Source: Gemmatimonadaceae bacterium
GTDB taxonomy: Bacteria > Gemmatimonadota > Gemmatimonadetes > Gemmatimonadales > Gemmatimonadaceae
Direction: 5' to 3'
DNA: 46,931 nucleotides
Assembly: GCA_025362035.1 (NCBI GenBank)
Contig: JANYIN010000065.1
Location: forward strand, 1-46,931
Made by a program: the position numbers and the translations under genes. The notes beneath the pieces were generated by a model. It had not been told where the DNA came from and ran no database searches. It saw nothing but the letters and a program-made list of their open reading frames with translations. This document shows positions 25,301 to 42,200 of this stretch, piece by piece. Numbering within the stretch: the first letter of the stretch is position 1; every line of letters begins with the position of its first letter.

Positions 25301-25480
25301 CCACCAGCCCACGCCGATGACGCTTGCCGTAATCAGCAGGATCAAAAGCGGCTGCCGCAACGACGCGCGCACGATGCGATGGACCGCCGACGGCGACATG
25401 TGCGTCGCGAACTCGTCGGCGGTAGACCTCTGATCGTTGCCGCGGTAATCGTCGGGAGGCACTGCCGTGGGATCGCTCAC
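22310..25480 (-). CDS. Heavy-metal efflux RND transporter, CzcA/CusA family
   Basis: A 1056-residue inner-membrane pump of the HME-RND family, which moves metal ions out of the periplasm using proton influx. TM1 (~45-65) is followed by LPVDAYPDISPP, a family landmark. The TM4 motif IDFGILVDGAVVMVEN is the DFGxxxDGA...EN type known from divalent-cation exporters such as CzcA, unlike the Cu/Ag type of CusA; preference for Zn, Co, Ni or Cd is therefore inferred. The pump domains include the expected GGEYEEYTNSRGQL segment. The reading frame is intact with 12 plausible helices. It overlaps the fusion-protein gene by four bases, indicating a stoichiometric operon. Confidence 0.94.
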   Translation of the reverse strand: MSDPTAVPPDDYRGNDQRSTADEFATHMSPSAVHRIVRASLRQPLLILLITASVIGVGWWSLTRLPVDAYPDISPPLVELVTQWPGHAAEEVERLITVPVENGMAGLPNLKVSRSISLYGLSDVRLTFEDGTDNYFARQQAFERIANISMPPGVTPGMTALTSPSGLVYRYVLESPDRSAMELHVLQQWVLDKAYRSVPGVADLSSLGGETMEYEVLLDPARLAGQGLSAGDVATALDANNGNAGGGFYAEGGQFYYVRGLGRVVTTEDISNIVLKVHNGTPVLVKDVGDVAIGHPPRLGQFGFMSQNDAVEGIVLMRTGEQAQSVLKRVEAKTTQLNNGILPSDVKVRPFYDRSELVALTTHTVRDNLLLGIVLVVVVLIFFLYDVRAGLIVATAIPLSLLFAFICLDLKHIPANLLSIGAIDFGILVDGAVVMVENIYRQLAHRGHEHLGVKQIIAAAASEVDRPIVYAVGVIVASFIPIYVLAGPSGRLFRPMADTTIFALIGSLLVTLTVVPVLCAVFLKPGRVERGNVVFRKLLSLYERNLAWSMARPKWIIGGSVALFAAAMLVFAAIGAEFMPKLDEGTLWVRATMPYTISFDESSKLVPQIRDALRSFSEVTIVASEHGRPDDGTNPTGFFNAEFYVGLKPYADWNGAHRSKKDLIADIDKKLGMFPGVNFNYTQPAEDAVDEAETGLKSSLDVKLFGTDLNTLEARGREMKKVLDGVPGITHVTLVQELGQPSLTIDVDRAKIARYGVNVADVNGLIEAAVGGKAATQVVQGERTFDLVVRLKPEYRQTPEQIGNILVATPSGAQVPLRELAAIAVNTGASFIYRQDNSRYIGVQYSVEGRDLASAVKDAQQRVAARVKLPTGYRVVWGGEYEEYTNSRGQLRVVVPVTLALIFLLLFALYQNFKFPAITVAGVLLSAPIGGILMLWITGTPFSVSSGIGFLALFGVSVQTAVVFISYANELRQQGRSIVDATRQAALLRLRPILMTGLVAALGLLPAAFSTGVGSDSQRPFALVIVGGLFSRLLISVLLMPVLYVAVAREGDTLEV

Positions 25481-26694
25481 TGGTTGCCCGCGAATTGGAG
25501 GAAGAGCGCGCCGTCCACCACGATGCGATCGCCGGCTGCCAGTCCGCTCTTCACTTCATACTGGTCGCCGAGGCGCGACCCGATCGTGATGGACCGACGG
25601 GCGAAATGATTGTCAGGCAGCGCGAGGTAGACGAAGGGCAGGTTCTGGTCGTCGCGTAGCACCGCCGATGTCGCCACGAGGATGCCGTTTCGGCTCCGGC
25701 TCGCACGAATGGTCACGTTCACGAGCATGTCGCGCTTCAGGGCATCGTGCGGATTCGACGCGAGAATGCGTACGGCGGTGGCCTTCGACGATGGATCGAC
25801 CAGTGAACCAACGTACACCACCTTGCCCCCGATCGCCGTCGGCAGCGCGCCCGTGACGATACTCGCGTCCTCACCGGGGGAGACGGCGGCGAGATCGGAC
25901 TCGAACACATTGGCCATGACCCACACTGTCGCGAGGTCCGCAATGGTGAAGCACGCCGTGCTCCCGGCCTGGATGAGCTGGCCCGGATTGACGAGCTTCT
26001 CGACGACCGTCCCGCTGATGGGTGCGCGAATCACTGCGGCAAGTGGTCCGGTGGGCTTGTTGTCCCGGACCGCGGCGATCGCGGCTTCGTCCACGCCGAG
26101 CGCGCGCATCTGCTCGATGGCGGCATCGCGGTCCGCCGCGGCTGCTGCCGCATCGGTCTGCGCCTGCTCTACCTCTCTGCGCGAGATCGCGTCGTTCTTG
26201 AAGAGCTGTTCGTCCAGGTCCGCAATGCGCTGCATGTTGCGGAACGACGACTGCGCCTTGCGATACGACGACATCGCCGTCGCAAAATCCGGCGAGGTGA
26301 CGGTCGCCAGCGGATCGCCCTTTCGTACGACTGAACCCGGGGTCACCAGAATCCTCGTGATCGGACCCGAGAGCGGAGCGAGCACCTGAGTGGAACGGTC
26401 GCCATTGAATGCCACGGTGCCGGTGGTCGTCACCGCGGCCTGATATGCACTGATGGCGACGTCCGCCACGTGGATGCGACCGGCTTGCTCCTTGGTGACG
26501 GTCACGTCCTTCGCCTTCACGAGCGAGTCCGGCCGTGCGCCCGCGCGCGCCGTGTCTCCGTTCGCGCTGGCCGGCGAGCCCGAGCCGCACCCGACCAGCA
26601 TGCCAAGCACCGGAAGTGCGACCGCCGCGCGCCGAAGGCGCGACTGACGCGCCGCATGGCGCGCCGCGACGATAGGATGGCTCACGACGTTCAT
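25477..26694 (-). CDS. RND efflux periplasmic adaptor (membrane fusion) lipoprotein, CzcB-like
   Basis: A 405-residue periplasmic adaptor that links the pump to the outer-membrane channel. The N terminus has a long basic n-region, a hydrophobic core and a lipobox GMLVGC (Cys near residue 36), so it should be a lipoprotein. A barrel-sandwich (biotinyl-lipoyl-like) segment includes VLAPLSGPITRILVTPGSVVRKGDPL and its second half VIRAPISGTVVEKLVNPGQLI. A helical hairpin lies between them, and beta-barrel and membrane-proximal parts follow. No His-rich CusB-type metal-binding N terminus is obvious. It overlaps both neighbours by four bases. Confidence 0.93.
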   Translation of the reverse strand: MNVVSHPIVAARHAARQSRLRRAAVALPVLGMLVGCGSGSPASANGDTARAGARPDSLVKAKDVTVTKEQAGRIHVADVAISAYQAAVTTTGTVAFNGDRSTQVLAPLSGPITRILVTPGSVVRKGDPLATVTSPDFATAMSSYRKAQSSFRNMQRIADLDEQLFKNDAISRREVEQAQTDAAAAAADRDAAIEQMRALGVDEAAIAAVRDNKPTGPLAAVIRAPISGTVVEKLVNPGQLIQAGSTACFTIADLATVWVMANVFESDLAAVSPGEDASIVTGALPTAIGGKVVYVGSLVDPSSKATAVRILASNPHDALKRDMLVNVTIRASRSRNGILVATSAVLRDDQNLPFVYLALPDNHFARRSITIGSRLGDQYEVKSGLAAGDRIVVDGALFLQFAGNQ

Positions 26695-27968
26695 GGTGTT
26701 CTCCGGGGGCCGAAGCGTGTGAGGGGAGTGGCGGCCGCGCGCTCGAGATCGGCGCGGGAGCTGTTGGCAGCCGTGAGCGCATCCGCATATTGCGTTTCCG
26801 CATTGAGCAGATCGGTGCGCGCGGCAAGTACTTCGAGGGCAGAGGAACCGCCCAGGCCATAGCTGACCGAGGCGACGCGGTACGCCTCCCGTACCGACGG
26901 AAGCAGGGCGTCGCGGATGAACAGGGCCTGCCGCAGCGCTGCATCGGCCGCGGCATAGCTGGATCGAACATCCTGCGATACCTGCGCCCGGAGGTCGCGA
27001 TAGGCGGCGGCCAACTCCCGCTCGCGATGCTGGTCTTGCGCGATTTCACCCTTTGCGTGCTGCCAGAAGAAAATGGGGAACGGCATCGTGATTCCAGCCG
27101 CGAAGAGCGCGCTCCCGCTGTCCGCCGCAAAATCCTTCTGTGCCGACAACGTGAAGTCCGGAACCCAGAACTGTTTAGCCAGACTCGTTGCCGCCTTCGC
27201 CCCCTCTTGTTGGCTCGCCAGCCCCCCCAGTTCGGAGCGGCCCGTAAGCGCGGCCTGCTCCAATAGCTCGAGTTCGGGCAGTGTCGGGGGAATGCTCAGG
27301 GAATCTCGCGTGGCCACCGGCGTACCGACGGGCCGTCCGATGAATCGGTCCAGCGCGTTGGACGCCGTCTGAATGTCTCGCTCCGCGCCGATCAGTTGGT
27401 TCTCCGCCTGCGCGACGGCGACCTGGGCGCGCACGACGTCAAGCTTTGCCGCCGTGCCCCCGTCGAACCTGGCCTGGGTCTTCCTCAGAAAGTCCTGCGC
27501 CAGGCCGCGGCTCGTCAGAAAGATCTCGCGATGACGAAACGCCGCGAGCAGCGTGTCGTACGAGCTCGAGGTCTGCGCGGCCAACTGCTGACGCAGACCC
27601 GTATACGAGTACTCGGCAGAGTGCACGTCGGCGGCGCCGATTCTGTTGCGCAACGCGAACCTGTTGGGAAACGGCACCAGCAGGGTGACCACCGCGTTCC
27701 TGTTCGCGGCGGTGCCGAGGCCGAGGAATCGCGTCTGGTTGTCGTAGGAGTACGTGAACGTGGGATCGGGAATCGAGACTGCCTGGACCTGGCGCGCGCG
27801 CGCCTCGGCCGTCTGCTCCCGAGCCACGTCGAGTTGGGGATTGCTGGCGAGGGCCGCAGCGACAGCTGCAGCGCGTGTCAGCACGAGCGAATCGCGCCGC
27901 GGGGGCGCTTGTGCGGCGACGGTCGCGGCATAAGACGCCGCGACGATGCATATCGTCGGAATTTTCAT
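26691..27968 (-). CDS. TolC-family outer-membrane efflux channel, CzcC-like
   Basis: A 425-residue outer-membrane factor. The signal peptide is MKIPTICIVAASYAATVAAQ; I therefore start at 27968, although the frame extends upstream with Arg- and Pro-rich residues. Two internally repeated helical halves are visible, each with long Ala- and Gln-rich alpha segments (for example LDVAREQTAEARARQVQAV and LDVVRAQVAVAQAENQLIG). This is typical of the OEP fold whose trimer forms the trans-periplasmic tunnel. The stop overlaps the adaptor gene ATG by four bases. It lies 61 bases after the small Cys/His gene that heads the cluster. Confidence 0.92.
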   Translation of the reverse strand: MKIPTICIVAASYAATVAAQAPPRRDSLVLTRAAAVAAALASNPQLDVAREQTAEARARQVQAVSIPDPTFTYSYDNQTRFLGLGTAANRNAVVTLLVPFPNRFALRNRIGAADVHSAEYSYTGLRQQLAAQTSSSYDTLLAAFRHREIFLTSRGLAQDFLRKTQARFDGGTAAKLDVVRAQVAVAQAENQLIGAERDIQTASNALDRFIGRPVGTPVATRDSLSIPPTLPELELLEQAALTGRSELGGLASQQEGAKAATSLAKQFWVPDFTLSAQKDFAADSGSALFAAGITMPFPIFFWQHAKGEIAQDQHRERELAAAYRDLRAQVSQDVRSSYAAADAALRQALFIRDALLPSVREAYRVASVSYGLGGSSALEVLAARTDLLNAETQYADALTAANSSRADLERAAATPLTRFGPRRTP

Positions 27969-28029
27969 TGGTTCTCGCGTGAGATGGGGCGTCTGCCGCA
28001 CAAGACAGGCGGCAACGCCGGCTATCGGA

Positions 28030-28389
28030 TCACGACAAGACGGGCGGGGCGCGAGACGAGTTGGACGGAACCAGCGTGGCGCCATGCGAATGCGACGCAG
28101 CAGTCGGTGCGGTGGCACTCTCTTCGAGCACCAAGTCGGGCAAGCCCGCGCGTTCGGCTACGCGTCCGTGCAGCGAAAGGAGTTGGCATGCCGGGCACGA
28201 ATCTGCCCGATGCTGGCCAGGATGCGGCGCCGACTGTGGGGCTTCGACGTGCGCGCCAAGCACTCGATCGGAATGACTCTCCGCAATCGGCGCAAGCAGC
28301 ATCACCAACTGCACCCCGAAAGCCATGAAACGGCCGAAGTGCCAAAGCCAGCGGCGATGCGCGAAAAGGGAGCGAAGGGATGTTGTCAT
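28030..28389 (-). CDS. Small DUF2946-like secreted or membrane protein with Cys/His motif
   Basis: A 119-residue product beginning MTTSLRSLFAHRRWLWHFG. A hydrophobic segment (FMAFGVQLVMLLAP) is followed by a soluble tail with HPGQHRADSCPACQLLSL. The C-x2-C pair with nearby His residues and the single N-terminal helix resemble DUF2946-type proteins found at the head of copper or other metal efflux loci; the assignment is by pattern. The tail contains SHSHG, another possible metal ligand group. It is the first gene of the minus-strand efflux run, and its first ATG is at 28389. A metal-sensing or metal-handing role is inference. Confidence 0.6.
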   Translation of the reverse strand: MTTSLRSLFAHRRWLWHFGRFMAFGVQLVMLLAPIAESHSDRVLGAHVEAPQSAPHPGQHRADSCPACQLLSLHGRVAERAGLPDLVLEESATAPTAASHSHGATLVPSNSSRAPPVLS

Positions 28390-28579: not shown

Positions 28580-31500
28580 ATGACCAGGACTGGCCCTCGC
28601 GCCATGCGCGTGGTCTTGCTCGCCGCCCTGACATGCGCCGCGAACGGCTGCCGGTCCGAGCCGCCGAAGATCGACGAGATGTTCAGCACGCGCATGCAAG
28701 GGCTCAACTTCCTGCAGCGGGGCCAGCTGCCGGAGGCGGAAGCACAGTTCACCAAACTCGTCGCGTTGGCGCCGAGAGAACCGATGGGCTATGCGAACCT
28801 GGGCCTCGCCTACCTGCAAGGCGGCCGCTACGCCGAGGCCGAGCCGCACTTGCGAAAGGCGCTGGATCTCGACCCGACGGCCACGGATGTCGTCCTGATG
28901 CTCGCCAAGCTCCATACGCTCACGGGACGAGCCCCGCTGGCCCGTGAAGAGCTCGAGAAGCTGCCACACGGCGGGCCCGACGATGCACGCGTGCTCTTCG
29001 CACTCGCCGAGCTCGAAGCACAGACGACGGGCGGGACGCACAGTCGGCGATATGGAGACCTGCTGGCTCGAGCACTCGTGCTCAAGCCGACCAACCTGGC
29101 CGTGCGGCTCTCGCTGCTGCAGGTGGCCGTTCGTCAGGGGCAGTCCGACAGCGCCGTGAGCGCGCTGGAAGAGATCCGGCGGCTACCGCCGGAGCCGCCG
29201 AAGGAGGCCAAGCCGGCACTCGAGGAGACCATTCAGCATCTGCGCGCCGGGCAGCTCGACGAAGCGCGCGCGTCGCTGAGCCGCTTTCTCGCGATCATGG
29301 AAGTCACGTCGCAGTACCAGGTGGCGCTGCGCGATGTGAAGTGGGTGGAGGCACCGCTCGCGGGTCGCCCCGTGCTGACGTTCGAGCCGCAGTCGGTCAT
29401 CACGATGCTCGGCTCCGGCGTTGTGTCGCGCGCCGCCACTTCGCTGCGATTTGTGGACATGACTCGCGACGCCGGGCTGCCGGAGCCCGGGGCGGCCCCC
29501 GCGGCCGACGCTTCCGCACCCTCGCCGTCCGGCGCGCCGGTAGCCATCGCCGTCGGCGATGTGAACGGCAGTGGCACCGAGGACCTGTTCGCGTCGTCAC
29601 GACTGTATCACGTCCAACGGGGATATCTGGCCGATTTCACCGTCAGGGCGGGCCTGGCCGGTGTGGGCGGCGCCGCGCTCGCAACATTCGGGGACTTCGA
29701 CAACGATGGATGGCTGGACATGTTCGTCGTGGGCGCGGACGGCCGAGGCCGACTCCTTCGCAACCTGGGCGGCGAGAAGTTCGAGGACGTCACCGCGAAG
29801 GCCGGTGCGTTCGACGTTGCTGGTGCGCGTCAGGCCATGTTCGTCGATCTCGACCACGACGGTGATCTGGACCTGCTGATCGTGGGCCGCGAGAAGCGAC
29901 TGCTCTATCGCAACAACATGGACGGCACCTTCACGGAGTCCGCGGAACGCATGGGGATCGGGGGACGCGGCGACGCGCGGTCCGTTCACTTCGCGGATTT
30001 CGATGGCGACGGCCGCATCGACCTGTTCATCACGAACGCCGACGGAAGCGACGTGCTTTACCGCAATCTTGGCGGTGGTCATTTCGCCGATGTCACGCAG
30101 GCCAGCGGGCTGGCGACGCACGGGGGCTCGGGCGCAGCGGCGGTCGGCGACTTCGATAACGATGGCCTGCCCGACATCTTCGTGACGCGCGTCGATGGAG
30201 GAGAGCCGACGCTCTGGCACAACAACGGAAACGGCACCTTCACGCGCGACGTGCGCTCCGCGGGCGCGCTGCGGACGATGCGCGGCATGAACGGACTGGG
30301 CGCGCAGTTCGTGGACGTGGACAACGACGGATGGCTGGATCTGGTCGTGGCGGGAACGCCCACCACGCCCGGAGGTCGCGGCGTGTTCCTCCTGCGAAAC
30401 GACGGCACCGGCAAGTTCGACGACAGCTCCAGTTTGCTGCCGACCACTTTCCGATCCGCTACGTCGGTGGTCGCGAGCGACGTGGACGACGATGGCGACA
30501 TGGACCTCGTGTTCGGCGTGCCAGGCGGCGTTCGCATCCTCCGGAACGATGGCGGCAACGCACACCTCGCCACGAAGATTCAACTCGTTGCGCTGCGGGA
30601 CGGGAGCGGAAAGAACAACAGCTTCGGCATCGGCGCGAAGCTCGAGCTTCGGTCTGGTGAGCTCTTTCAGACTCGGGTGGTCACGAGCCGCACCACGCAC
30701 TTCGGGTTGGGGCCACACCTGAAGGCGGACGTGCTCCGGATCGAATGGCCGAATGGCGTTCCACAGACCGTGCATTTCCCCGGGACCGACCAGGACGTGC
30801 TCGAGGTCGAGGGGCTCAAGGGCTCGTGCGCGTTCCTGTATGCGTGGAATGGCACTGGCTTCGGGCTCGTCACCGACGTGATGTGGCGCAGCGCGCTGGG
30901 GATGCCGATGGGTATCATGGGTGGCGGCCGCATGGGCTACGCGCCGGCGGGGGCGTCACAGGAGTACCTGAGAATTCCGGGCAGCGCGCTCAAACCTCGG
31001 GATGGCCGGTACGTGGTCCAACTCACCGAGGAACTCTGGGAAACGGCGTACGCGGACCAACTCAAGCTGATGGCGGTGGACCATCCGGATTCAGTGGAGG
31101 TCTTCGTCGACGAGCGCTTCGTACCGCCGGCTCCGGTGTCACTGCGCATGTTCAAGGTCGTTCGTCCGCGTCCCCCAGTCTCGGCCACGGACGAGCGCGG
31201 CAACGATGTGCTACCGGCACTGCTGAAGCGGGACGACGTATACGTCTCGAACCTCACCCCCCTCGAATACCAAGGGTTGGTCCAACCCCACGACCTGGTG
31301 CTCGACCTCGGGGCCGACGTCGGTCGCGCCGGGACGTACCTGTTCCTCCGCGGGTGGATCTACCCGACCGACGCGAGCATCAACGTCGCGCTCTCGCAGC
31401 AGTCCGCGGTAAAAGTGATGATGCCGTCGCTGGAGGTGCGCGACGCGCGCGGACAGTGGACCACCGCGACCGCGAGCATCGGATTTCCATCCGGGAAGAA

Positions 31501-32164
31501 CAAGACCCTCGTGATCGATCTGGCCGGTAAGTTCCCCACGGCCGATCATCGCGTGCGGATCCGCACGAACATGCAGATCTACTGGGACCAGGCGTTCGTC
31601 TCGAACGATGTGTCCTCGGCACCCGTGCAGGTGACCGAGCTCGCGCCATTGTCGGCCGACCTCCATTTTCGTGGGTTCTCGAGAACGTATCGAAAGGGCG
31701 GTCGGTACGGCCCCTACTGGTTCGACTATGACGACGTGAGCCCCACCTCGCCGTGGCGCCCGATCCAGGGCGCGTTCACGCGATTCGGCGACGTCCTGTC
31801 ATTGCTCAAGAGCCCCGATGACATGTATGTCATCATGGCACCCGGCGACGAGACGACCCTGCAGTTCGACGCCCGGTCGGCGGACTCCCTGCCCAAGGGT
31901 TGGTCGCGCGACTTCCTGCTCTATACCGACGGGTGGATCAAGGACTCGGATCTCAATACGGCCTACGGAACAACGGTCGAACCACTTCCGTTCCACCGAA
32001 TCAAGTCCTATCCGTACGCCCCTGACGATTCCTATCCGTCGGACCCTGCGCATCAGCAATACCTGCGGGAGTACAACACGCGGCGGATCGACGCGGCGGC
32101 GGTAGCCGCGGGGCAGCGCGAGCGGCGCCGGACCGCCGAGAGCAAGGCGTCCAGCTCGAAGTAA
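28580..32164 (+). CDS. TPR plus FG-GAP/VCBS and ASPIC-UnbV lipoprotein with long unknown C terminus
   Basis: A 1194-residue exported protein. A lipoprotein signal peptide (MRVVLLAALTCAANGC, lipobox AANGC) opens it. TPR-like helices (~35-180) follow, for example GLAYLQGGRYAEAEPHLRKAL. Then come FG-GAP/VCBS calcium-loop repeats (DFDNDGWLD, DLDHDGDLD, DFDGDGRID, DFDNDGLPD, DVDNDGWLD, DVDDDGDMD) between ~325 and ~650, predicting a beta-propeller. An ASPIC/UnbV domain (~660-730) has the pattern IGAKLELRSGELFQTR...LRIEWPNG. The last ~450 residues have no domain I recognise but contain a conserved-looking segment around WSRDFLLYTDGWIKDSD. I chose ATG 28580; the ATG at 28604 is a shorter option. The next gene starts 11 bases after the stop. 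Confidence 0.85.
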   Translation: MTRTGPRAMRVVLLAALTCAANGCRSEPPKIDEMFSTRMQGLNFLQRGQLPEAEAQFTKLVALAPREPMGYANLGLAYLQGGRYAEAEPHLRKALDLDPTATDVVLMLAKLHTLTGRAPLAREELEKLPHGGPDDARVLFALAELEAQTTGGTHSRRYGDLLARALVLKPTNLAVRLSLLQVAVRQGQSDSAVSALEEIRRLPPEPPKEAKPALEETIQHLRAGQLDEARASLSRFLAIMEVTSQYQVALRDVKWVEAPLAGRPVLTFEPQSVITMLGSGVVSRAATSLRFVDMTRDAGLPEPGAAPAADASAPSPSGAPVAIAVGDVNGSGTEDLFASSRLYHVQRGYLADFTVRAGLAGVGGAALATFGDFDNDGWLDMFVVGADGRGRLLRNLGGEKFEDVTAKAGAFDVAGARQAMFVDLDHDGDLDLLIVGREKRLLYRNNMDGTFTESAERMGIGGRGDARSVHFADFDGDGRIDLFITNADGSDVLYRNLGGGHFADVTQASGLATHGGSGAAAVGDFDNDGLPDIFVTRVDGGEPTLWHNNGNGTFTRDVRSAGALRTMRGMNGLGAQFVDVDNDGWLDLVVAGTPTTPGGRGVFLLRNDGTGKFDDSSSLLPTTFRSATSVVASDVDDDGDMDLVFGVPGGVRILRNDGGNAHLATKIQLVALRDGSGKNNSFGIGAKLELRSGELFQTRVVTSRTTHFGLGPHLKADVLRIEWPNGVPQTVHFPGTDQDVLEVEGLKGSCAFLYAWNGTGFGLVTDVMWRSALGMPMGIMGGGRMGYAPAGASQEYLRIPGSALKPRDGRYVVQLTEELWETAYADQLKLMAVDHPDSVEVFVDERFVPPAPVSLRMFKVVRPRPPVSATDERGNDVLPALLKRDDVYVSNLTPLEYQGLVQPHDLVLDLGADVGRAGTYLFLRGWIYPTDASINVALSQQSAVKVMMPSLEVRDARGQWTTATASIGFPSGKNKTLVIDLAGKFPTADHRVRIRTNMQIYWDQAFVSNDVSSAPVQVTELAPLSADLHFRGFSRTYRKGGRYGPYWFDYDDVSPTSPWRPIQGAFTRFGDVLSLLKSPDDMYVIMAPGDETTLQFDARSADSLPKGWSRDFLLYTDGWIKDSDLNTAYGTTVEPLPFHRIKSYPYAPDDSYPSDPAHQQYLREYNTRRIDAAAVAAGQRERRRTAESKASSSK

Positions 32165-32175
32165 GCGCGGGCCAT

Positions 32176-34002
32176 ATGTCCCTGCACCGATCGGGAAATC
32201 CGACAGGTGCTGCGGTGGAGCGGAGCGGTAGTTATTCTTTTCGAATGCTCTCTCCCACGCTTCGGCGCGCCATGATTGCCGTGCCGTTTTTCGGCGCCAT
32301 CGGTCTGGCGATTCGTCTGGATCGCGGACCGATGCGGTCGGCTGCGGACGCCGTGCGTCCCGGGTTCACGCTGAACGACGAAACCGCCGCCGCGGGCATT
32401 CATTTCGTGCACCACCGCGCCGAATTCGATCCGAAGATTCGCAATGTGGAGCCACATGTGGCCGCGCTGGGCGCGTCCGTTTCCGTCGCCGATTTCGATG
32501 GCGACGGATGGCCCGACCTGTACTTCACCAACAGCCACTTCGGGCAGCCAAATGCGCTGTACCACAATCGTGGCGACGGCACGTTCGAAGAGGTCGCGGC
32601 GAGCGCGGGACTCGCAGATCTCAATCGGCCGGGTGAGGGCGTGTCGATGGGAAGCGTGTGGGGCGACTTCGACAATGACGGTCGCGAGGACGTACTGGTG
32701 TACCGCTATGGATATCTGGCGCTGTTCAAGAACATGGATGGCCGGCACTTCAAGGACGTCACGGAGGAAGCAGGGTTGCGGCGCTGGGTCAATTGCAACA
32801 GCGCCATCTGGTTCGACTATGATCGGGACGGCCTGCTCGATCTGTATGTCACCGCATACTTTCGCGACGACATCGATCTCTGGCACCTGAAGAACACACG
32901 CATCATGCACAACAGCTTCGAGTTCGCCACCAACGGCGGCAAGCACATGCTCTTCCACAACCTCGGCGGCGGCAAGTTCGAGGACGTCACCGAGCGCATG
33001 GGCCTCGGCAGTACGCGCTGGACACTCGCGGCCGCATCGGCGGATTTCAACGAAGACGGATGGCCAGACCTCTACCTCGCCAATGACTACGGCCCGGAGG
33101 AAGTGTTCCTCAACGATCACGGGCGTCGATTCGTCCGGGCAACGGCCGGTCTCGAGAGCGAATCGAAGAGCGGCATGGCGGTGGCGCTCGGAGACGCGTA
33201 CAACCGAGGTCGTCTCGACGCCTTCGTGACGAACATTTCGGAACGCGGCTACCTGTTCCAGAACAACAACCTGCGGCTGAACCAGATGCCGGATGAGCAT
33301 CGGTTCCACAACGTGGCGGATGCCACCGTGGCCAATGCCGGATGGGCGTGGGGAGCGCAGTTCGGCGACTTCAACAACGACGGATTCAACGAGCTGTTTG
33401 TCGCCAACGGGTTCATCTCCGCCGACAAGAACAAGAGCTACTGGTACGCGATGTCGAAAATCGCGGGCGCGACGGGACAGCTGTTCGAAGACGCGGCGAC
33501 GTGGCCCGCGTTCGGGGATGCGAGCCTGTCCGGGTACGAGCGCGCACGCGTCTTTCTCAACCGCGGCCTGTCGGGGTGGGTGGACGTCGCCAGCGCGGTG
33601 CATGTCACCGACAGTTACGACGGACGCGCCGTCGCGCTGGCCGACCTGTCGAATCGCGGTTCAGTGGACGTGATCGTGGCGAACCAGAACCAGCGCGCGG
33701 TCTTGTACCGCGACTACCCGGACAGCGCCAACCACTGGGTCGCGTTCCACCTCGTGGGAACGCGCAGCAACCGCAGCGCGATTGGCGCCGAGATCGTGGT
33801 GGAGGCCGGCGACATTCGGCAACGACGCGTCATCGACGGCGGCATGGGCTTCGCAAGCCAGAACGACAGACGGCTGCACTTCGGGCTCGGATCACACGAG
33901 TGGGTGGACCGTGCCGTAATCCACTGGCCATCGGGTACGCAGCAGGTGCTGCGGCATCTCGCCGTGGATCGCTTTCATACCATCACCGAGCCGGGGCGCT
34001 GA
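32176..34002 (+). CDS. FG-GAP repeat and ASPIC/UnbV domain protein (CRTAC1/UnbV family)
   Basis: A 608-residue exported protein. A hydrophobic anchor or signal (RRAMIAVPFFGAIGLAIRL) lies near residues 30-48. FG-GAP loops follow (DFDGDGWPDLYF, DFDNDGREDVLV, DYDRDGLLDLYV, DFNEDGWPDLYLA, DFNNDGFNELFVA), and a C-terminal ASPIC/UnbV domain carries IGAEIVVEAGDIRQRRVIDGG and AVIHWPSG. UnbV-type proteins were named from enediyne antibiotic clusters, but are widespread outside them, and their biochemical role is unknown. ATG 32176 is used; an internal ATG at 32245, directly before the signal-like segment, is a good alternative. It is followed two bases later by an UnbU-like membrane protein gene, the same pairing as in enediyne clusters. 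Confidence 0.88.
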   Translation: MSLHRSGNPTGAAVERSGSYSFRMLSPTLRRAMIAVPFFGAIGLAIRLDRGPMRSAADAVRPGFTLNDETAAAGIHFVHHRAEFDPKIRNVEPHVAALGASVSVADFDGDGWPDLYFTNSHFGQPNALYHNRGDGTFEEVAASAGLADLNRPGEGVSMGSVWGDFDNDGREDVLVYRYGYLALFKNMDGRHFKDVTEEAGLRRWVNCNSAIWFDYDRDGLLDLYVTAYFRDDIDLWHLKNTRIMHNSFEFATNGGKHMLFHNLGGGKFEDVTERMGLGSTRWTLAAASADFNEDGWPDLYLANDYGPEEVFLNDHGRRFVRATAGLESESKSGMAVALGDAYNRGRLDAFVTNISERGYLFQNNNLRLNQMPDEHRFHNVADATVANAGWAWGAQFGDFNNDGFNELFVANGFISADKNKSYWYAMSKIAGATGQLFEDAATWPAFGDASLSGYERARVFLNRGLSGWVDVASAVHVTDSYDGRAVALADLSNRGSVDVIVANQNQRAVLYRDYPDSANHWVAFHLVGTRSNRSAIGAEIVVEAGDIRQRRVIDGGMGFASQNDRRLHFGLGSHEWVDRAVIHWPSGTQQVLRHLAVDRFHTITEPGR

Positions 34003-34003
34003 C

Positions 34004-34948
34004 ATGGCACACGCCACTGTGTCGGAGCGGCATCCGATGGCGCGCTGGTGGGAGCGAGGACATCTGCTCGACCCGCGCTACCTGATCGCCTTTCTCATCT
34101 CGCTGGTCCTCGTGGCCGGGCAGCTGCGCTACCATATGTTGGGCGGCTACGAGCGACTGGTGCTGGCGCTCCTCACCTGCACCGCCACCGAAGCCCTGCT
34201 GTCGTGGTTCGTCCGCGGTCAGGTCGTGAACCTCCAGAGCGCGTACATCAGCGGCCTCAGCCTCAGCTTGCTGCTCAAGCCGCAGGGCGCCGCGCTCTGG
34301 CCCTTCGCGCTGGGCGGATTCCTCGCGATTTCTTCCAAGTACGTGTTGCGGTATCGAGGCAACCACCTCTGGAATCCCACGAACTTCGCGATCGTCACTC
34401 TGCTCCTGGCCGCGCCCAACCGAGTGACTGAGCTGAGCCACCAGTTTGGCAGCGACATCTGGACCAACCTCGTGATCTGGGGTTTCGGTCTCGCCATCGC
34501 CGCCCGCGTGCGAACGTTGCACATCACGCTCACGTACGTTGCCAGCTTCCTGGTGCTCAACACCTTGCGAAGCCTGGCGCTCGGAATGCCCATCGCGCCC
34601 GAGATCGCCCCGATCACCGGGCCGATGTATCAGCTGTTCGTTTTCTTCATGATCACCGATCCGCGCACGGTGGTTCGCGAGCGGCGGTGGCAAATGGTGG
34701 TGGCCGTGCTCATTGCCACGACGGAGGCGCTCATCCGGTTTGCGTCTGATAGCGGGTGGCCGCTGCCGACCGCGTTCAACGCGGCCCCCGCACTCATGGC
34801 GCTGGCGATGGTGGGGCCGGTGGCAAAGTGGATCGATCTTCGGCGCGCCGGTCGCGGAATACCGGCTCCGGCGACATCCCTCGCAACGCCGGCAGCGCCT
34901 GCCTCACTTGATCACGGGTCATCCCCAGTAACGCGTGCCGGCGCATGA
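34004..34948 (+). CDS. RnfD/NqrB-like integral membrane protein (UnbU-like)
   Basis: A 314-residue polytopic membrane protein with about eight hydrophobic segments. Two stretches are diagnostic of the NqrB/RnfD/RnfE superfamily: GNHLWNPTNFAIV, near residue 120, and FFMITDPRTV, near 215-225. In true Rnf and Nqr subunits a Thr in the SGAT-type motif carries covalent FMN; I do not see that motif here, so flavinylation is not supported. No other rnf or nqr subunit genes lie nearby. UnbU of enediyne clusters belongs to this superfamily and sits beside UnbV, as here. The last ~50 residues are Ala/Pro-rich and overlap the opposite-strand flavoprotein gene. Confidence 0.8.
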   Translation: MAHATVSERHPMARWWERGHLLDPRYLIAFLISLVLVAGQLRYHMLGGYERLVLALLTCTATEALLSWFVRGQVVNLQSAYISGLSLSLLLKPQGAALWPFALGGFLAISSKYVLRYRGNHLWNPTNFAIVTLLLAAPNRVTELSHQFGSDIWTNLVIWGFGLAIAARVRTLHITLTYVASFLVLNTLRSLALGMPIAPEIAPITGPMYQLFVFFMITDPRTVVRERRWQMVVAVLIATTEALIRFASDSGWPLPTAFNAAPALMALAMVGPVAKWIDLRRAGRGIPAPATSLATPAAPASLDHGSSPVTRAGA

Positions 34949-36464
34949 GCACGTCGAGGTCCAGCGGATACAGATTGTGCCGTGCCGGATCCGCCAGGCC
35001 GGCGATGTTTCGTGGGGCAATCGAGCGCGATACCCAGGTCGCATAGCGCTCGCGGTCGTCCGCGCTTCCGGTGTGGCTGCGACCGCCGGTAATCTGTCGA
35101 AGCCGACGAAGGGCGTGCGCCGGTAGCGGTTCCAGTACCGGGTCGCCCACGCCGATGAAGCCGCTCCACGCCGCGTCGTCATCCGGCGCAAGTCGCTGGC
35201 GGACCTCACTGAATGAGACGGTCCCGAAATAGATCATCGCGTGAGCGGCGAAGAGATCGAAATGGGCCATCGCCTCATACGCACCGGCAACCAGCCAGTC
35301 GATCTGATCCGCTTCGGCGGAAAGTAGCGCGTCGTATCGCGTGAGCTCGTCAGCGCGTGGAGCGTGTCGGCCGCGCGCGTCCGGTTCGAAACACAGCGCC
35401 AGTCGCTCGACGGCTCGGAGGCTCCACGAGATGCCTGTGGAGAACAGCGGGTCCACGAATGCGTACGCGTGCGGTAGGAGCGCCCATCGCTCACCCACCG
35501 CGCGCGTAAGGCGGTGTTGGATGCCAGCGTGAAACGCGAGCGGCATGCGCGGCGTGGCATGTGCGAACGCACTGCCGATGGAGGGATAGCGAGCGAGCAA
35601 TGTGCGCCAGTGAACGTCCGGCGCGTCCGATGAGGACAGCTTCAGGCCGGCGAGCCCGCGCGGCGTGAGCGCGAACCCCGCGCTCGTGACTCCGTCGTCG
35701 AACCGAAGGCAGTAGGCCCAACCCTCGTCGATCAGATGATGCACCGCCGCACAATCCTCCGGATATGGTCCTTCTGGTAAGCCGGGGACGACGTCGCTCA
35801 ACTTGCGTACGCCGCTGAAGTGTCCGAACACCAGCGCCGAGCGCGTCTCCGTACGACTCAAGCCCGAAGGAATGGAGAACTGGCGCGCCAGGAACCCGCC
35901 GGGCCCCGATGCGTCGATCACGAAGTCCGCCTGCAACTCGAACGACGAGCCGTTCCGCTGCCCACTGAGGCGCATCCCCGTCGGCCCCGCTTCCGCAGCA
36001 GTCAGCTCGACGTGGTCACGATAGTCGACGCCGGCGGCGACCGCCTCGCGAACAAAATGGTGGTCGACGTCGGCACGATACCAGTGCGTATCGGACGTGG
36101 CATCGTTCGGACTGGCCGCGACGAGCAGGCGTTCTGAATCCAGTCCGCGATCAGCGAACGTCTCCTCCGGGTGGTGGCGATAGAACGTGAATCCCCGCTT
36201 CAACCCGCGACGAACGGCGGGAAAGTGTTCGAGCCAGCGCCCGTGCGCCGCCAAGCGGTAACAGTCGGCGAGTCCATACCGGCAGCCAAGGCGCTCGAGC
36301 GACAAGTTGGCGAGCGGCGTTGTCGATTCGCCGATGGCGAACCGTGGATGTGACCCGCGCTCGATCAGTACGACGTCGTAGCCCATCACTGCCAGGACGC
36401 GCGCGAGGAGAGACCCGGCGTAGCCGCTGCCGATGACCGCGACCTCGCAACGACGCGCTGTCAT
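34794..36464 (-). CDS. FAD-dependent oxidoreductase, flavin-dependent halogenase-like
   Basis: A 556-residue flavoprotein. The FAD motif VAVIGSGYAGSLLARVL (~8-24) is followed by IGESTTP (~44-50), a signature of flavin-dependent halogenases and related monooxygenases. The second FAD contact appears as AFVDPLFSTGISWSLRAVERL. The halogenase WxWxIP motif is replaced by GWAYCLRFDDG, so halogenation is not assured; a monooxygenase or oxidative decarboxylase role is as likely. The ATG at 36464 overlaps the radical SAM stop by four bases (ATGA). Its 3' end overlaps the RnfD-like gene on the other strand by 155 bases. Together with the two upstream genes it suggests modification of a small molecule or peptide. 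Confidence 0.85.
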   Translation of the reverse strand: MTARRCEVAVIGSGYAGSLLARVLAVMGYDVVLIERGSHPRFAIGESTTPLANLSLERLGCRYGLADCYRLAAHGRWLEHFPAVRRGLKRGFTFYRHHPEETFADRGLDSERLLVAASPNDATSDTHWYRADVDHHFVREAVAAGVDYRDHVELTAAEAGPTGMRLSGQRNGSSFELQADFVIDASGPGGFLARQFSIPSGLSRTETRSALVFGHFSGVRKLSDVVPGLPEGPYPEDCAAVHHLIDEGWAYCLRFDDGVTSAGFALTPRGLAGLKLSSSDAPDVHWRTLLARYPSIGSAFAHATPRMPLAFHAGIQHRLTRAVGERWALLPHAYAFVDPLFSTGISWSLRAVERLALCFEPDARGRHAPRADELTRYDALLSAEADQIDWLVAGAYEAMAHFDLFAAHAMIYFGTVSFSEVRQRLAPDDDAAWSGFIGVGDPVLEPLPAHALRRLRQITGGRSHTGSADDRERYATWVSRSIAPRNIAGLADPARHNLYPLDLDVLMRRHALLGMTRDQVRQALPALRGMSPEPVFRDRRAEDRSTLPPAPPSPAP

Positions 36465-37411
36465 GCCTCGCACACCGAGCAATCGACGCGTGGCTCCGCA
36501 ATGCCGGAGGCGTTTTGGCGACGCAGCCGGCCGATGCGCGCCTCTCCACACGATGCACAGGTGGGGAGACGATGAAGGTCCCAGAGGTCGGCGGTCACCA
36601 CAGTGTGCGTCAGGTGCAGACATCCGTCGAGCGCGGCCTCCAGCTGGCGCAAGGTGGGCGGCGCGAAGTGACCGAGCGACTGGAGCCGCTCCATTTCACC
36701 GTTGCCGCCACGGACCGGAATGATCGAGGCGAACGACGCGCCCCGCTGGGCCGCGTACTCCACGGTGCGCACCGCCCATTCGACCGCCTCTTCGGCCGGT
36801 ACGTACGGCGCGCCCAGGAGCACGAAGACGCGTAAGTCCATCTGATTGTCGGACAGAAAGTGCGCTGCCCGGTCGAATTGGGCGAGGTCGAGGCGCTTGT
36901 TGAGCTGCGCTGCCGCCGTGGGATGTATCGTCTCGAGCCCGACCGCGACTTCGAGGCGTCCAGGGATCCGCTGCGCGAAATCGAGCGCGAGCGTACCGAC
37001 GGTGTTGGCATGCGATTCGACCGTCACACCTGCGAACGGCGCGGCCAGCTCGGCGATGGCCGGCACGTCGACCGCGGGGACGGCGCGCCGGTCGAAGAAG
37101 TTGCTGGCGTTGTAGAGTTTCAGGCGGTCCGGACGCGGCGATCCCGCCTGAACTTCGCGGAGCACGTCCGACACTTGCTGGGTCACGGCGCCCGGGGGCG
37201 TGGGACCGTCGATGGTCCAGCGCCAGAGATCGCAGAAGGAGCAGGTGAACGGACACTCCGCACCCGCAAGGAACACCGTCAGGGCGAATTCGATTCGACC
37301 GTCCGGCCTGCGCTCCTCTTCGACAATCGACCCGTGCGCTTTCCACGGGTTCACGGCCGGCTTTGGAGTTCGCAGCCCGCGAATGCGTCGGTCGGTGTCT
37401 GACCCGCTCAC
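36461..37411 (-). CDS. Radical SAM protein with C-terminal CxxC pairs
   Basis: A 316-residue radical S-adenosylmethionine enzyme. The cluster-binding motif is CPFTCSFC with Cys at 53, 57 and 60. The central pattern (LKLYNASNFFDRRAVP, then VTVESHANTV and VAVGLETIHPTAAAQLNKRLDLAQF) is close to the uncharacterised TIGR01210-type family, distantly related to Elp3 and MiaB-like barrels. The C terminus carries TCASCG and DCSVCEA, two CxxC pairs that may bind zinc or an auxiliary iron-sulfur cluster. No peptide-recognition RRE domain is visible. It is joined to the asparagine-synthetase-like gene and to the flavoprotein gene by four-base overlaps, so the three should act in one pathway. The reaction is unknown. 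Confidence 0.85.
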   Translation of the reverse strand: MSGSDTDRRIRGLRTPKPAVNPWKAHGSIVEEERRPDGRIEFALTVFLAGAECPFTCSFCDLWRWTIDGPTPPGAVTQQVSDVLREVQAGSPRPDRLKLYNASNFFDRRAVPAVDVPAIAELAAPFAGVTVESHANTVGTLALDFAQRIPGRLEVAVGLETIHPTAAAQLNKRLDLAQFDRAAHFLSDNQMDLRVFVLLGAPYVPAEEAVEWAVRTVEYAAQRGASFASIIPVRGGNGEMERLQSLGHFAPPTLRQLEAALDGCLHLTHTVVTADLWDLHRLPTCASCGEARIGRLRRQNASGIAEPRVDCSVCEA

Positions 37412-38739
37412 ACGCCCGAAGCGTGGAGCACTTGGAAGTGTCGCCGGTATCGAGCCTCGTTTTGTGGTCCGAGCCGGGAGACCTGCTCGGCAGGCACTGA
37501 TCCATGCTGAAATCGGCGCTTTGGGAACACCGGCATCTCGAGGCCGAGCACGGACCGGATGCCGGCCGCGACGATCTCACCTTTCAGAGCGTAGAGCCGC
37601 TCGTGCGATCCCTGTGTCAGTTCGGCGAACGGAATCGCTTCCGCCACGGCGATGACGGACGGGCGGGTATAGGGACTGAAGCCCTCGAATCCGTACTCGC
37701 GCGCACAGGCGTAGCTACGGACACACCCTCGGCTGTACCCGCCCGAGTAGGTCAGCGAGTGCTTGATGGAGTCCACGCCCCAGCCCTCCTGGTACAGCAT
37801 CCGATTGTTGACGACGCTCCGGATGGTCAACTCGCTGTTCTCCTCGATGGGATAGTCCTTGAGGTTCTCGTCACCGCCGTCGCCGTCCACGAACAGGCGC
37901 CACGTTGGGTAGCGCTCGCGAATGGCCGCGAGCAGCCCGAGACTCACGGCCGCGCATTCCACGTCCAGCGGCTTGTAGTCCTCAATGACGGCCACGGCAC
38001 GCAGGGGATCCAGTGCACTGGAGGGGACGTCGATGATTTCGCCCAGCATCTCGAGCTGTGAATGCCGCAGAAACTCGCGCGCCTGGCGCGCGTCGTCTCC
38101 TGCGCCGTCCACGCTGAGCGTGAACGCCTTGAGACGGGCGGGCGACTGTCCGTTGTTCAACAGGAGTTTGTACAGGCAAAGCAGCACAGCGCCGCTGTCG
38201 ATGCCGCCGGAAAACATGACGGCCAGCGGAGCCGCGGGCTCTTGGGCGGCGAGCCAGCGTCGGAGCTCTTCATAGACGGCTTCGACGTACTGACGACCGA
38301 TGAGGGCGAGATTTGGCGGCAACGTACCGCGTGGCGGGTCGAAGAAGCGCCGGTGCACCGGATTCGGGTCGGGACACCCGACCAGACGCAGCGTCGTCAC
38401 GTGGTGGGCCGGCACCATGCGGGTGTAGCTCGGGTGGAACTGGTCCGACCATCCGTGACGCGCGAGCTCCGCGGCGATTTCGTCAATGCGCTCCGCGACG
38501 ATCAGTACCGGTCCTTCGGCGGCCTTCGCAAGGAAATAGCGAAGGGGGCGGTCGAGGCTTCGCGCCAGCAGCACGCGGTCTTCCTCCTGGGCCACGAGCG
38601 CGAAGGAGCCATCGATGTCCAGCACAGCGCCCGCGTCGGCGTCGAGAAGTCTTCGTTGGGCGTCCACTTCATCCGACCGCCAGAATCGCTGGGAGTCCCG
38701 AGGAATCAGGTTGATGACGCGGGCAATGGGATAGGTCAT
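37408..38739 (-). CDS. Asparagine synthetase-related protein lacking the glutaminase cysteine
   Basis: A 443-residue enzyme of the AsnB fold. The N-terminal half keeps the scaffold (IDGSFALVAQEEDRVLLARS, then DRPLRYF) but begins MTYPIARVIN, with no Cys at position 2, so glutamine hydrolysis is not expected. The synthetase half has the ATP PP-loop FSGGIDSG (~176-183) and DGDGGDEN (~285-292). Relatives lacking the Cys include beta-lactam synthetases, which form amide bonds by adenylating a carboxylate; lasso-peptide cyclases share the fold. The start at 38739 best fits the fold; ATG 38763 is an alternative. It heads an operon with a radical SAM enzyme and a flavoprotein. The substrate is unknown. 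Confidence 0.82.
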   Translation of the reverse strand: MTYPIARVINLIPRDSQRFWRSDEVDAQRRLLDADAGAVLDIDGSFALVAQEEDRVLLARSLDRPLRYFLAKAAEGPVLIVAERIDEIAAELARHGWSDQFHPSYTRMVPAHHVTTLRLVGCPDPNPVHRRFFDPPRGTLPPNLALIGRQYVEAVYEELRRWLAAQEPAAPLAVMFSGGIDSGAVLLCLYKLLLNNGQSPARLKAFTLSVDGAGDDARQAREFLRHSQLEMLGEIIDVPSSALDPLRAVAVIEDYKPLDVECAAVSLGLLAAIRERYPTWRLFVDGDGGDENLKDYPIEENSELTIRSVVNNRMLYQEGWGVDSIKHSLTYSGGYSRGCVRSYACAREYGFEGFSPYTRPSVIAVAEAIPFAELTQGSHERLYALKGEIVAAGIRSVLGLEMPVFPKRRFQHGSVPAEQVSRLGPQNEARYRRHFQVLHASGV

Positions 38740-39264: not shown

Positions 39265-42200
39265 ATGCGCTTCATTGGGAGGAGTGTCATACAAACGACT
39301 CTGCGCGGAATGCTGCTTACCGCGGTTCTGAGCGGAGCGGCCTCGGCTCAACCAAGGCCCGTGGCCGGCACGGTGTCCTCGCCATCCGGCGGCCCGCTTG
39401 TGGGAGTCGTCGTTCGCGTCAAGGGGACAGAAACCCGCGCGACGACGGGCCAGAATGGGCGGTTCTTCATTACGGCGCCCGGAGACGGAGTCCTGAGTTT
39501 TACGCACGTCGGTCGGCATCCAGTGGACGTCGCGATTGGCGGCAACAACACCGTGAACGTCACGATGGCGCCCATTGCCTATCTGGAAGAGGTGCTGGTG
39601 ACCGCGTACACGGAACAGCGGCGAGCCGATATCACTGGGGCCGTCGCCAGCGTGAACGTTGAAAGCGCGGACCGGCAGACCTCGGCCAGTATCCTCCAGC
39701 GGCTGGACGCTGCGGTCCCCGGCATAACTGTCGCCACGAGCGGGTCGCCCGGCGCACGTGCTACGGTTCGAATCCGCGGCATCAGTTCCTTTCAGAACAA
39801 TGATCCGCTGTATGTCGTCGACGGCACACCGGTACAGGATTCCTACGTCAATTTTCTGAACCCCGACGATATCACCTCCATCCAGGTTCTGAAGGACGCA
39901 TCGGCCGCATCCATCTACGGCTCGCGCGCCAGTAATGGCGTGATCGTCATCGAGACGACGAAGCGGGGAGAAGCAGGACCGCCACGGAGCACGCTGCGGG
40001 TGCGCACCGGCATCGCCCGACCCATCCGCGGTTATGATGATTTCCTCATCACCAACTCGCTGGACTACTTCCAGGTAGAAAAGCAGAGCTATCTCAACGC
40101 GGGCCTGCCGGTTCCGAGCAACATTTTCGGAGACCCGAACAACCCGACGATCCCCGCCTACATCTTCGCAGCGCCCGGCACAGTGACCGGCACCGACCAA
40201 TATGGCCGGCCCACCTCGGTCAACACCGCCAAATACTCCTACCCCAACAGTCTGATCATGCCCGGGAGCGCCGGCACCGATTGGTGGAAGGCCGTCTTTG
40301 GACCGGCGTCCTTGGGGGACTACAACCTGGATGTCAGCGGTGGCAGCTCGGAAAATGCGTACAACGTCTCCTTCAATTACTTCAATCAGGACGGCACGGC
40401 GAAGTACAATAATTTCCAACGGGGCAGTGTTCGCGTCAACACGTCGTTCACCCGGGGCAAGGTGGATTTCGGTGAAAACATCGCGCTGTCACTCGACCGG
40501 CATTACGGCGGACTTCCGGATGATCCGGGTGGCTACGCGGAAGACGGCATTCTTGGCAAGAACATCCTGATGCAGCCCGTCATCCCGTTGTACGACATCA
40601 ACGGCAATTATGCGGGCGGCAAGTCTACCGGCCTGGGCAACCAAGCCAATCCGCTCAAGGAAGCCTTTTTCGCGAAGGACAACATCGCCAAGAACAATCG
40701 GGTCTTCGGTAATGTGTTTGCCGGCCTCGACCTGACCCACGCGCTCGCCTTCAAGACCAGACTTGGGTTCAGCCTCGCGCAGGGCGCATTCGCGGGGTTC
40801 GGTCCAATCTTTCCGGAGAACGCGGAAGCGACGTTCATCAATTCCATCAATGAGAACACGAGCCAATCAACTGATTGGACCTGGACGAACACCATGCGGT
40901 ACGTCAAAGCTGTGAACGACCACTCCTTTGACTTTCTGGTGGGAGAGGAGGCCAACGCCAACACCAACCGGTTCATCACGGCGTCGATGTCCAACCTCCT
41001 CTCCGACGACGTGGCCTCCAGATATCTGCAGGACGCCCTCGGTGACCCCAGCACGAAGAATGTGTCCAGCAGCGGCGGTCAGAGCGCCCTGTTGTCGTAT
41101 TTTGGAAAGGCCGGGTACAATTACGCCGACAAGTACGTGGCGAGCGTCACCATCCGAAAGGATGGTTCGTCGCGGCTTGGGCCAACCAACAAGTGGGGAA
41201 CGTTCCCGGCGTTCGGTCTGGGATGGAGAATCTCGAAGGAGCCCTTCCTGGCAAACAACAAGACGTTCTCCGACGTCATGCTGCGCTATGGGTGGGGCGT
41301 CACCGGAAACCAGCTCATCCCGCCCGGACGCATCGTCTCGCAATTCGGTGGCGACCGCGGCGATACGTTCTACGATATCGGAGGAGGCAGCAGCGGCCTG
41401 GTGGCGGGCTTCCGCCAGACGTCGCTTGGGAACCCGAACCTGAAGTGGGAAGAGAATCGATCCCAGAACCTGGGTACGGACATCGCGATGTTCAACGGCA
41501 ACGTCAACGTCGTGGTCGACGTGTACAAACGCGAAACGAGCAATCTGCTGTACAACCCGGCCACCCCCGCCACGGCAGGCATCGCGGCGCCGCCGATCGT
41601 CAATATCGGTCAGATGAAGAACACGGGCATTGATTTCTCCATCGGTCACCAGGCGGCGAGCTGGAACGTGACCGTCAACGGAAGCCACTACAAGAACGAG
41701 ATCGTGTCCATCGACGGAGTCCAGAACTTCTTTTACGGCCCGATCGCGACGCGTTTTGGAAATCAGGTCATCAACAAGGTTGGCTATCCGATCGGCTCGT
41801 TCTACGGCTATGTCGCGGATGGTTTCTTCAAGGATGCGGCCGACGTGGCGAGCAGTCCGAAACAGGACGGCGCTGCGCCGGGCCGGATCAAGTTCCGTGA
41901 CGTCAATGGCGACGGAAAGATCGATCTTGCAGACCGGACGGTGATCGGCAGTCCGCATCCGGATTTCACGGGCAGCCTCGATATGGGAATACGGCGCGGC
42001 CTGTGGGACGTGAACGCCACCGTATTCACCTCGCACGGGAACAAGATCTTCGACGTGCAAAAGGAGTTCTACATCTTCCAGAACTTCTCCACGAACGTCC
42101 GGCAGGATCTGCTGGCCAACTCGTGGACCCCCACGAACCAGAACGCGCTGTACCCGCGGCTGGACGTGAGCGACAACTACAGCCACGCGATCAGCAGTTT

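Follow-up and report, generated by a model that had tools for sequence, protein, structure and literature searches.

Conserved but facultative association of an AsnB-like, radical SAM and flavoprotein trio with a polyketide synthase-free UnbV-UnbU locus in Gemmatimonadota

Two facing operons lie at positions 28580 to 38739 of contig JANYIN010000065.1 from a Gemmatimonadaceae bacterium (assembly GCA_025362035.1), whose 46,931 nucleotides, analysed in full, are here called the window. One operon encodes two UnbV proteins and the membrane protein UnbU; the other, referred to as the trio, encodes an AsnB-like enzyme, a radical S-adenosylmethionine (SAM) enzyme and a flavoprotein. Comparison with other genomes shows these to be two modules, built from known protein families, whose partnership is conserved without being obligatory. 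On the forward strand, UnbV1 (28580-32164, starting at ATG 28580 or 28604) is a lipoprotein-like protein with TPR, FG-GAP and UnbV_ASPIC domains and a long C-terminal region; UnbV2 (32176-34002), with FG-GAP and UnbV_ASPIC domains, is by Pfam and homology the counterpart of the UnbV of enediyne clusters; and UnbU (34004-34948) is, by Pfam and alignment, an RnfD/NqrB-like membrane protein that lacks the motif [ST]GA[TS]. The reverse strand encodes an AsnB-like amide ligase (37408-38739; Pfam, alignment), with the PP-loop SGGIDS and no catalytic N-terminal Cys, a distantly RaSEA-like radical SAM protein (36461-37411, GTG start), with the CxxxCxxC cysteines C53, C57 and C60, and a PltM-like halogenase/monooxygenase dependent on flavin adenine dinucleotide (FAD; 34794-36464). 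The open reading frame (ORF) of this flavoprotein is open to 36623; its ATG at 36464 shares an ATGA overlap with the radical SAM stop codon and is therefore most likely the true start. The AsnB-like and radical SAM genes share a GTGA stop/start overlap, gaps of 11 nt and 1 nt separate UnbV1 from UnbV2 and UnbV2 from UnbU, and the convergent operons share 155 nt at their 3' ends (34794-34948). This gene content, with its coordinates, is as the initial annotation described it.

The locus extends beyond the six genes first noted. A SusC/RagA TonB-linked outer-membrane protein (39265-42474, +), a SusD-like lipoprotein (42505-44292, +) and a third FG-GAP and UnbV_ASPIC protein, UnbV3 (44324-46867, -), all recur with the locus in relatives. 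As the window is the entire contig, the 5' end of UnbV3 is probably cut by the contig end. Of six UnbV domain matches in the whole genome (G000; 212 contigs, 4.64 Mb), half fall within this locus. Tandem UnbV3-like genes occur elsewhere in one relative (L154, genome G136) and on contig C65 of the same genome (L030), where they adjoin SusC matches, so that the UnbV/SusC pairing is wider than this locus. A divergently transcribed RND-MFP-TolC pump (22310-28118) was considered as part of the system and rejected: in the flank upstream of UnbV1 in six trio-bearing relatives (L203-L208, 8 to 18 kb each) it does not lie beside UnbV1, the one RND match, at 27%, being about 14 kb away.

In Pfam, UnbV_ASPIC is matched by UnbV1 at 4.5e-6 (26.9 bits against a cut-off of 23.4) and by UnbV2 at 1e-20; the long C-terminal region of UnbV1 has no Pfam match. 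Inspection by eye places a lipobox-like AANGC after its first hydrophobic stretch. UnbU matches NQR2_RnfD_RnfE (PF03116) at 1.5e-11 (44.6 bits, cut-off 27.7). In RnfD and NqrB the motif SGAT carries covalent flavin mononucleotide (FMN) on its Thr; [ST]GA[TS] is absent from all 11 aligned UnbU rows, so UnbU would not be expected to bear this cofactor. No further Rnf/Nqr subunit appeared among the window genes run against Pfam, and no solved structure was related to UnbU at E<=0.01.

Active-site residues are well conserved in the trio. The AsnB-like protein matches PF00733 (37.5 bits, cut-off 21) and its PP-loop, SGG.DS, is invariant in 15 aligned rows. Glutamine-hydrolysing AsnB enzymes have a catalytic Cys at position 2; at the starts chosen none of the 15 rows has it, and glutamine is thus not the expected nitrogen source. 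The CxxxCxxC cysteines of the radical SAM protein are invariant (17/17 rows). Its nearest named family is RaSEA (TIGR01210), at 52.2 bits, well under the cut-off of 212.15, and a profile search against solved structures returned just three chance-level rows at E<=1. The motifs FxxPxxSxG and GWxWxIP typify FAD-dependent halogenases, and the first is kept in all 14 flavoprotein rows. Lys142, numbered from the ORF start at 36623, is likewise invariant (14/14) and aligns with Lys87 of PltM, the closest solved structure by sequence (2.6e-73). Loss of Lys87 is reported to inactivate PltM (PMC6424973). The protein also resembles NCBIfam QhpG, at 74.2 bits under a cut-off of 240 (E 9.4e-21). On these comparisons it is best described as PltM-like, and the initial characterisation of the reverse-strand genes as a natural-product-like set remains apt as a prediction from sequence.

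The radical SAM protein occurs in 12 of 60 relatives (a count that takes in the own genome), at 58 loci of a collection of bacterial and archaeal genomes and in 23 of 295 genomes of the class. Seventy radical SAM loci were compared, the 58 of the collection and 12 fetched from the class-genome matches, with the same sequence occurring twice in two cases (L049/L166 and L081/L164). An AsnB gene lies upstream of the radical SAM gene, on the same strand and within 500 bp, in 59 of the 63 loci with at least 1.4 kb of upstream DNA (all except L075, L078, L087 and L158). The flavoprotein gene lies downstream in 55 of the 60 with at least 1.7 kb on that side; the misses are L056, L075, L086, L158 and L043, where the match starts 542 bp away. 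By record title the trio spans Gemmatimonadota, Acidobacteriota and Planctomycetota, with order and strand kept; one locus titled Deltaproteobacteria (L060) is placed in the same class as an acidobacterial genome (G316). In this acidobacterial class the radical SAM protein has a match in 68 of 147 genomes at E<=1e-3 and in 57 at E<=1e-50. Recurrence in the same order at dozens of loci, together with the concentration of half of the genome's UnbV matches at this one, indicates that the arrangement is more than chance. Our search of the open-access literature, judged by titles and the beginnings of abstracts, found no paper on the trio or on UnbV and UnbU as a pair.

In a quick-type tree of the trio the window falls in a clade of 28 rows, itself included, with a support of 99 in the Shimodaira-Hasegawa-like approximate likelihood ratio test (SH-aLRT). 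Thirty loci were counted as of the window type, 27 from this clade and three (L059, L071, L085) that, being too short to enter the tree, were assigned on their 67-68% identity. If any match that reaches 40% over 100 aa is taken as a neighbour, UnbV or UnbU accompanies 25 of these 30 loci and one (L155) of the 40 others, among which weaker UnbV-like matches occur in L063, L073, L086 and L157. UnbU itself is present in 14 of the 30. Four of the five window-type misses are on contigs of 4 to 10 kb (L032, L033, L037, L085) and the fifth (L047) has only a 97-aa piece of UnbV1.

Co-occurrence in related genomes, the check suggested by the initial annotation, gave a positive but partial answer. In the set of 295 class genomes the radical SAM gene occurs in 23, and UnbU in 27 at E<=1e-80 or 45 at the looser E<=1e-3; 15 have both where 2.1 would be expected (Fisher p 1e-12), and by genus 8 are shared against 1.6 expected (p 7e-6), in tests that treat genomes and genera as independent and ignore species phylogeny. 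Twelve genomes have UnbU only and eight the trio only. Where the radical SAM match is close (E<1e-150; 12 genomes) UnbU is always present, and where it is distant UnbU occurs in 3 of 11. In seven of the 15 genomes with both (G036, G051, G240, G289, G202, G136, G152) the genes are on different contigs, where contig breaks may hide nearness. The SusCD-UnbV3 block is inverted between loci and yet retained, and the trio is missing from UnbU-only loci, for example L142, that still have SusCD-UnbV3 and UnbV2-UnbU. In one genome (G189, L155) a divergent trio from another branch adjoins UnbU-UnbV2, which by its sequence we regard as an independent joining. The linkage is a Gemmatimonadota trait. Of the joint system first proposed, the conserved neighbourhood in the window's relatives therefore stands, and the idea of a single obligate system does not, since each module also occurs alone; independent occurrence, expected at the outset to come with loss of the neighbourhood if the operons were unrelated, was found with the neighbourhood kept.

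The kinship of UnbV-UnbU with the enediyne pair, noted initially, is borne out: UnbV2 is 28% identical over 530 aa, and UnbU 33% over 175 aa, to their Streptomyces clavuligerus counterparts. We know of no role assigned to UnbV and UnbU in enediyne clusters. The absence of an enediyne polyketide synthase (PKSE) was equally upheld, with no PKSE or DUF1702 match at 1e-10 in the window or the fetched window-type loci. The own genome has just three partial polyketide synthase (PKS) matches, at 33-36% and on other contigs, compared with 50-59% for true PKSE in G246 and G298. Eight of the 11 window-type UnbU genomes searched have no PKSE match, and two besides the own genome have one partial match each. 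DUF1702 was not found in G000; six of the 295 class genomes match it. In a quick-type tree that carries a long-branch warning, and in which the label V1 denotes any UnbV1 match over 400 aa and thus includes UnbV2-like genes, the window's UnbU lies in a 25-row clade (SH-aLRT 99) with no PKSE in the fetched DNA. A second clade has 10 rows (SH-aLRT 100), L140 and L200 being the same gene, and PKSE accompanies nine of them; the tenth comes from a Serratia plasmid and lies in a cluster of another kind that contains a ketosynthase (KS). By sequence, the pair studied here thus groups in a PKS-free clade, separate from that of the enediyne pair. Genuine UnbV-UnbU-PKSE cassettes are present in the same class, in G246 (L200), G298 (L199) and, on a short contig, G284 (L201); DUF1702 accompanies those of L199 and L200 and that of L188, and G284 has only a fragment. 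L188 is the Sinorhizobium (S. meliloti) symbiotic plasmid pSymA, which also bears an enediyne-type UnbV-UnbU-PKSE cassette. The Serratia proteamaculans plasmid (L187, NZ_MT039191.1) carries DUF1702-UnbV-UnbU in a non-enediyne cluster with KS, acyl carrier protein, aminotransferase, glycosyltransferase and histidine N-methyltransferase genes.

Redox-type genes recur beside UnbU and UnbV in relatives. Multihaem cytochromes were found there in L048, L045, L059, L152 and L063. Those of L045 (8496-13300) and L063 (3713-8418, with TPR repeats) are multihaem cytochrome c554-like and adjoin an UnbV2-like gene. A histidine-rich, membrane-like protein of no family (P0007, L035:12208-12858) is conserved near UnbU in L035, L036, L043 and L059. 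An AhpD-like protein (L035:13183-13755, L042:13030-13608, other relatives, and contig C65 of the own genome, L030) has an in-frame TGA at CxxU in 15 of 16 distinct copies, L147 and L211 being counted as one, and TGC in the other; it is likely to be a selenoprotein. Of 60 relatives, with the own genome counted among them, 42 have a SelB match above the family cut-off, as against 2 of 14 control genomes. None of the neighbour proteins from relatives that were used as queries was found in the window.

Beyond the window's clade, Pfam analysis of neighbours at 16 sampled loci shows that the surroundings of the trio differ between lineages. They include tmk, holB, DsbA-like, M1/M16 peptidase, ThiC, fatty-acid hydroxylase and Mg-chelatase-like ATPase genes, lumazine synthase, methyltransferase, GT87 and solute-binding protein genes, and others. 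Among 26 clustered loci the recurring downstream families include DsbA-like (F3, 10 loci), holB (F5, 8) and tmk (F6, 7), names taken from the neighbours of L060. The trio has a stable chromosomal place in part of Acidobacteriota. Most of the short-ORF families listed near the trio (25-130 aa, within 2.5 kb) look like shadows of larger genes, antisense or out of frame, and among them no precursor peptide stood out from noise; nor did trio neighbours run against Pfam include a leader-peptide protease or recognition domain. The four proteins submitted to PADLOC matched no defence system.

The reading we lean towards, tentatively, is that the trio makes a small aromatic amide and that in Gemmatimonadota an envelope module handles the product. 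The first part, which takes the trio for a small-molecule pathway, best suits the family memberships and active-site residues and deserves moderate confidence; the second, a joint role of trio and envelope module, is plausible from their co-occurrence. The trio would be a self-contained cytoplasmic pathway. Its AsnB-like enzyme would activate a carboxylate with ATP and couple it to an amine other than ammonia released from glutamine. On the coupled molecule the radical SAM enzyme would then carry out a radical step, which may, if RaSEA as a distant relative is a guide, remove the carbon part of the amine, and the PltM-like flavoenzyme is predicted to halogenate or hydroxylate an electron-rich aromatic ring. 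UnbV1-UnbV2-UnbU, SusC-SusD and UnbV3 would form the envelope module, in which the propeller proteins would lie outside the membrane, UnbU would be the RnfD-like component within it and SusC the TonB-linked porin. For this module the trio of Gemmatimonadota appears to be a frequent, non-obligate guest, whose product it would most simply capture, move or change in redox state; the recurring redox genes count in favour. More speculatively, and with little probability, the trio could be an undescribed pathway, ancient in three phyla, to a cofactor-like or signalling amide. UnbV-UnbU would then take charge of the halogenated aromatic product and serve more generally as an envelope redox/transport module for aromatic metabolites that are reactive.

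Several observations weigh against the small aromatic amide and its handling by the module. Downstream of the trio, in loci outside the window's clade, a tmk-holB-DsbA-like run recurs, for example in L060, L062 and L084, and the sampled flanks share no transporter; that run, with the frequency of 57/147 in one class, would fit modification of a cofactor or macromolecule as well as or better than a secondary metabolite, and it lowers our confidence in a small-molecule product. In the flavoprotein GWx[YW]xLxF replaces the halogenase motif GWxWxIP in 14/14 rows, with Y in 12. Among the trio genomes that fall outside the clade, 24 in number and one titled Gemmatimonadales, 19 have no UnbU match, and two of the remaining five (G328, G331) have an UnbU copy linked to PKSE. 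To these are added the single-module genomes of the class and the independence assumed in the Fisher tests. Modification of a protein or RNA in place of a free small molecule, by a maturase set like QhpD/QhpG of a tryptophylquinone enzyme or by a RaSEA-like base modification, would also suit the lack of a shared transporter and of a recognisable precursor nearby and the aligned AsnB-like proteins outside the clade, which are 55-67% identical to the window's, as well as the NCBIfam matches, each far under its cut-off, to RaSEA and to the maturases QhpG, GoxB and LodB. We give it a minor but real share of the probability, which the tmk-holB-DsbA-like run raises slightly. Against it, the PltM match far exceeds that to QhpG (in searches of different types), the halogenase lysine is invariant and the genes beside the trio include no recognisable shared target.

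Alternatively, the operons may be functionally unrelated, the trio having settled in a variable spot of an UnbV-UnbU-SusCD locus in one lineage and then been inherited. Genomes with one module alone, loci like L142 and the origin of most linked trios in one clade agree with this, and we give it a real if minor share of the probability; the independent joining in G189, a neighbourhood retained through rearrangement and co-occurrence even on separate contigs (seven genomes) speak for a functional link. A ribosomal peptide pathway, in which a lasso-type cyclase and the two tailoring enzymes act on an overlooked short precursor, seems highly improbable: the AsnB-like fold resembles that of lasso cyclases, which have the AsnB fold without the glutaminase Cys, but the short-ORF families listed mostly look like shadows and the neighbours run against Pfam included neither leader protease nor recognition domain. 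Least credible of all is a remnant or variant enediyne cluster. Homology of UnbV-UnbU recommends it; we rejected the enediyne reading because the window and the fetched window-type loci have no PKSE or DUF1702 match, the own-genome PKS matches are partial and on other contigs, and UnbU sits in a separate clade.

New here are a conserved trio and a PKS-free comparison set for UnbV-UnbU. A PKS-free clade within a class that also has genuine enediyne cassettes separates any general role of the pair from an enediyne-specific one. As a compact set of three enzymes of known chemistries, common in one acidobacterial class, the trio is practical for heterologous expression. Were UnbV-UnbU a general envelope redox/transport module, an outcome we think improbable, this would also explain its role in enediyne clusters.

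Each component has a known counterpart from which it departs. The AsnB-like enzyme shares with amide ligases of the beta-lactam synthetase and lasso cyclase type a PP-loop synthetase domain and the loss of the glutaminase Cys, yet matches solved asparagine synthetases weakly (best 0.0033) and forms its own highly conserved family. ArcS, the partner of RaSEA in archaeosine synthesis, is not known to be AsnB-like. With the ArcS-RaSEA pair the trio has in common an amine-joining enzyme and a TIGR01210-like radical SAM protein, whereas no tRNA link was seen for the trio. RaSEA follows the lysine-joining enzyme and converts lysine-bearing preQ0 in tRNA to archaeosine (PMC11298593). Tetracycline 7-halogenase stands with PltM among the best solved relatives of the flavoprotein; PltM has GWLWVIPF where the trio protein has its own variant, the C-terminal regions align in part, and no polyketide genes lie beside the trio flavoprotein. 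UnbU shares with RnfD and NqrB the PF03116 domain above cut-off, but scores 32 against 207 bits for the rnfD NCBIfam model. The closest parallel to the envelope genes is the enediyne DUF1702-UnbV-UnbU-PKSE cassette of the S. clavuligerus plasmid NZ_CP065235 (L190), which has homologous proteins in the same UnbV-then-UnbU order; the window locus, without PKSE and DUF1702 and with its UnbU in a separate clade, adds to it the TPR-containing UnbV1, SusCD and UnbV3.

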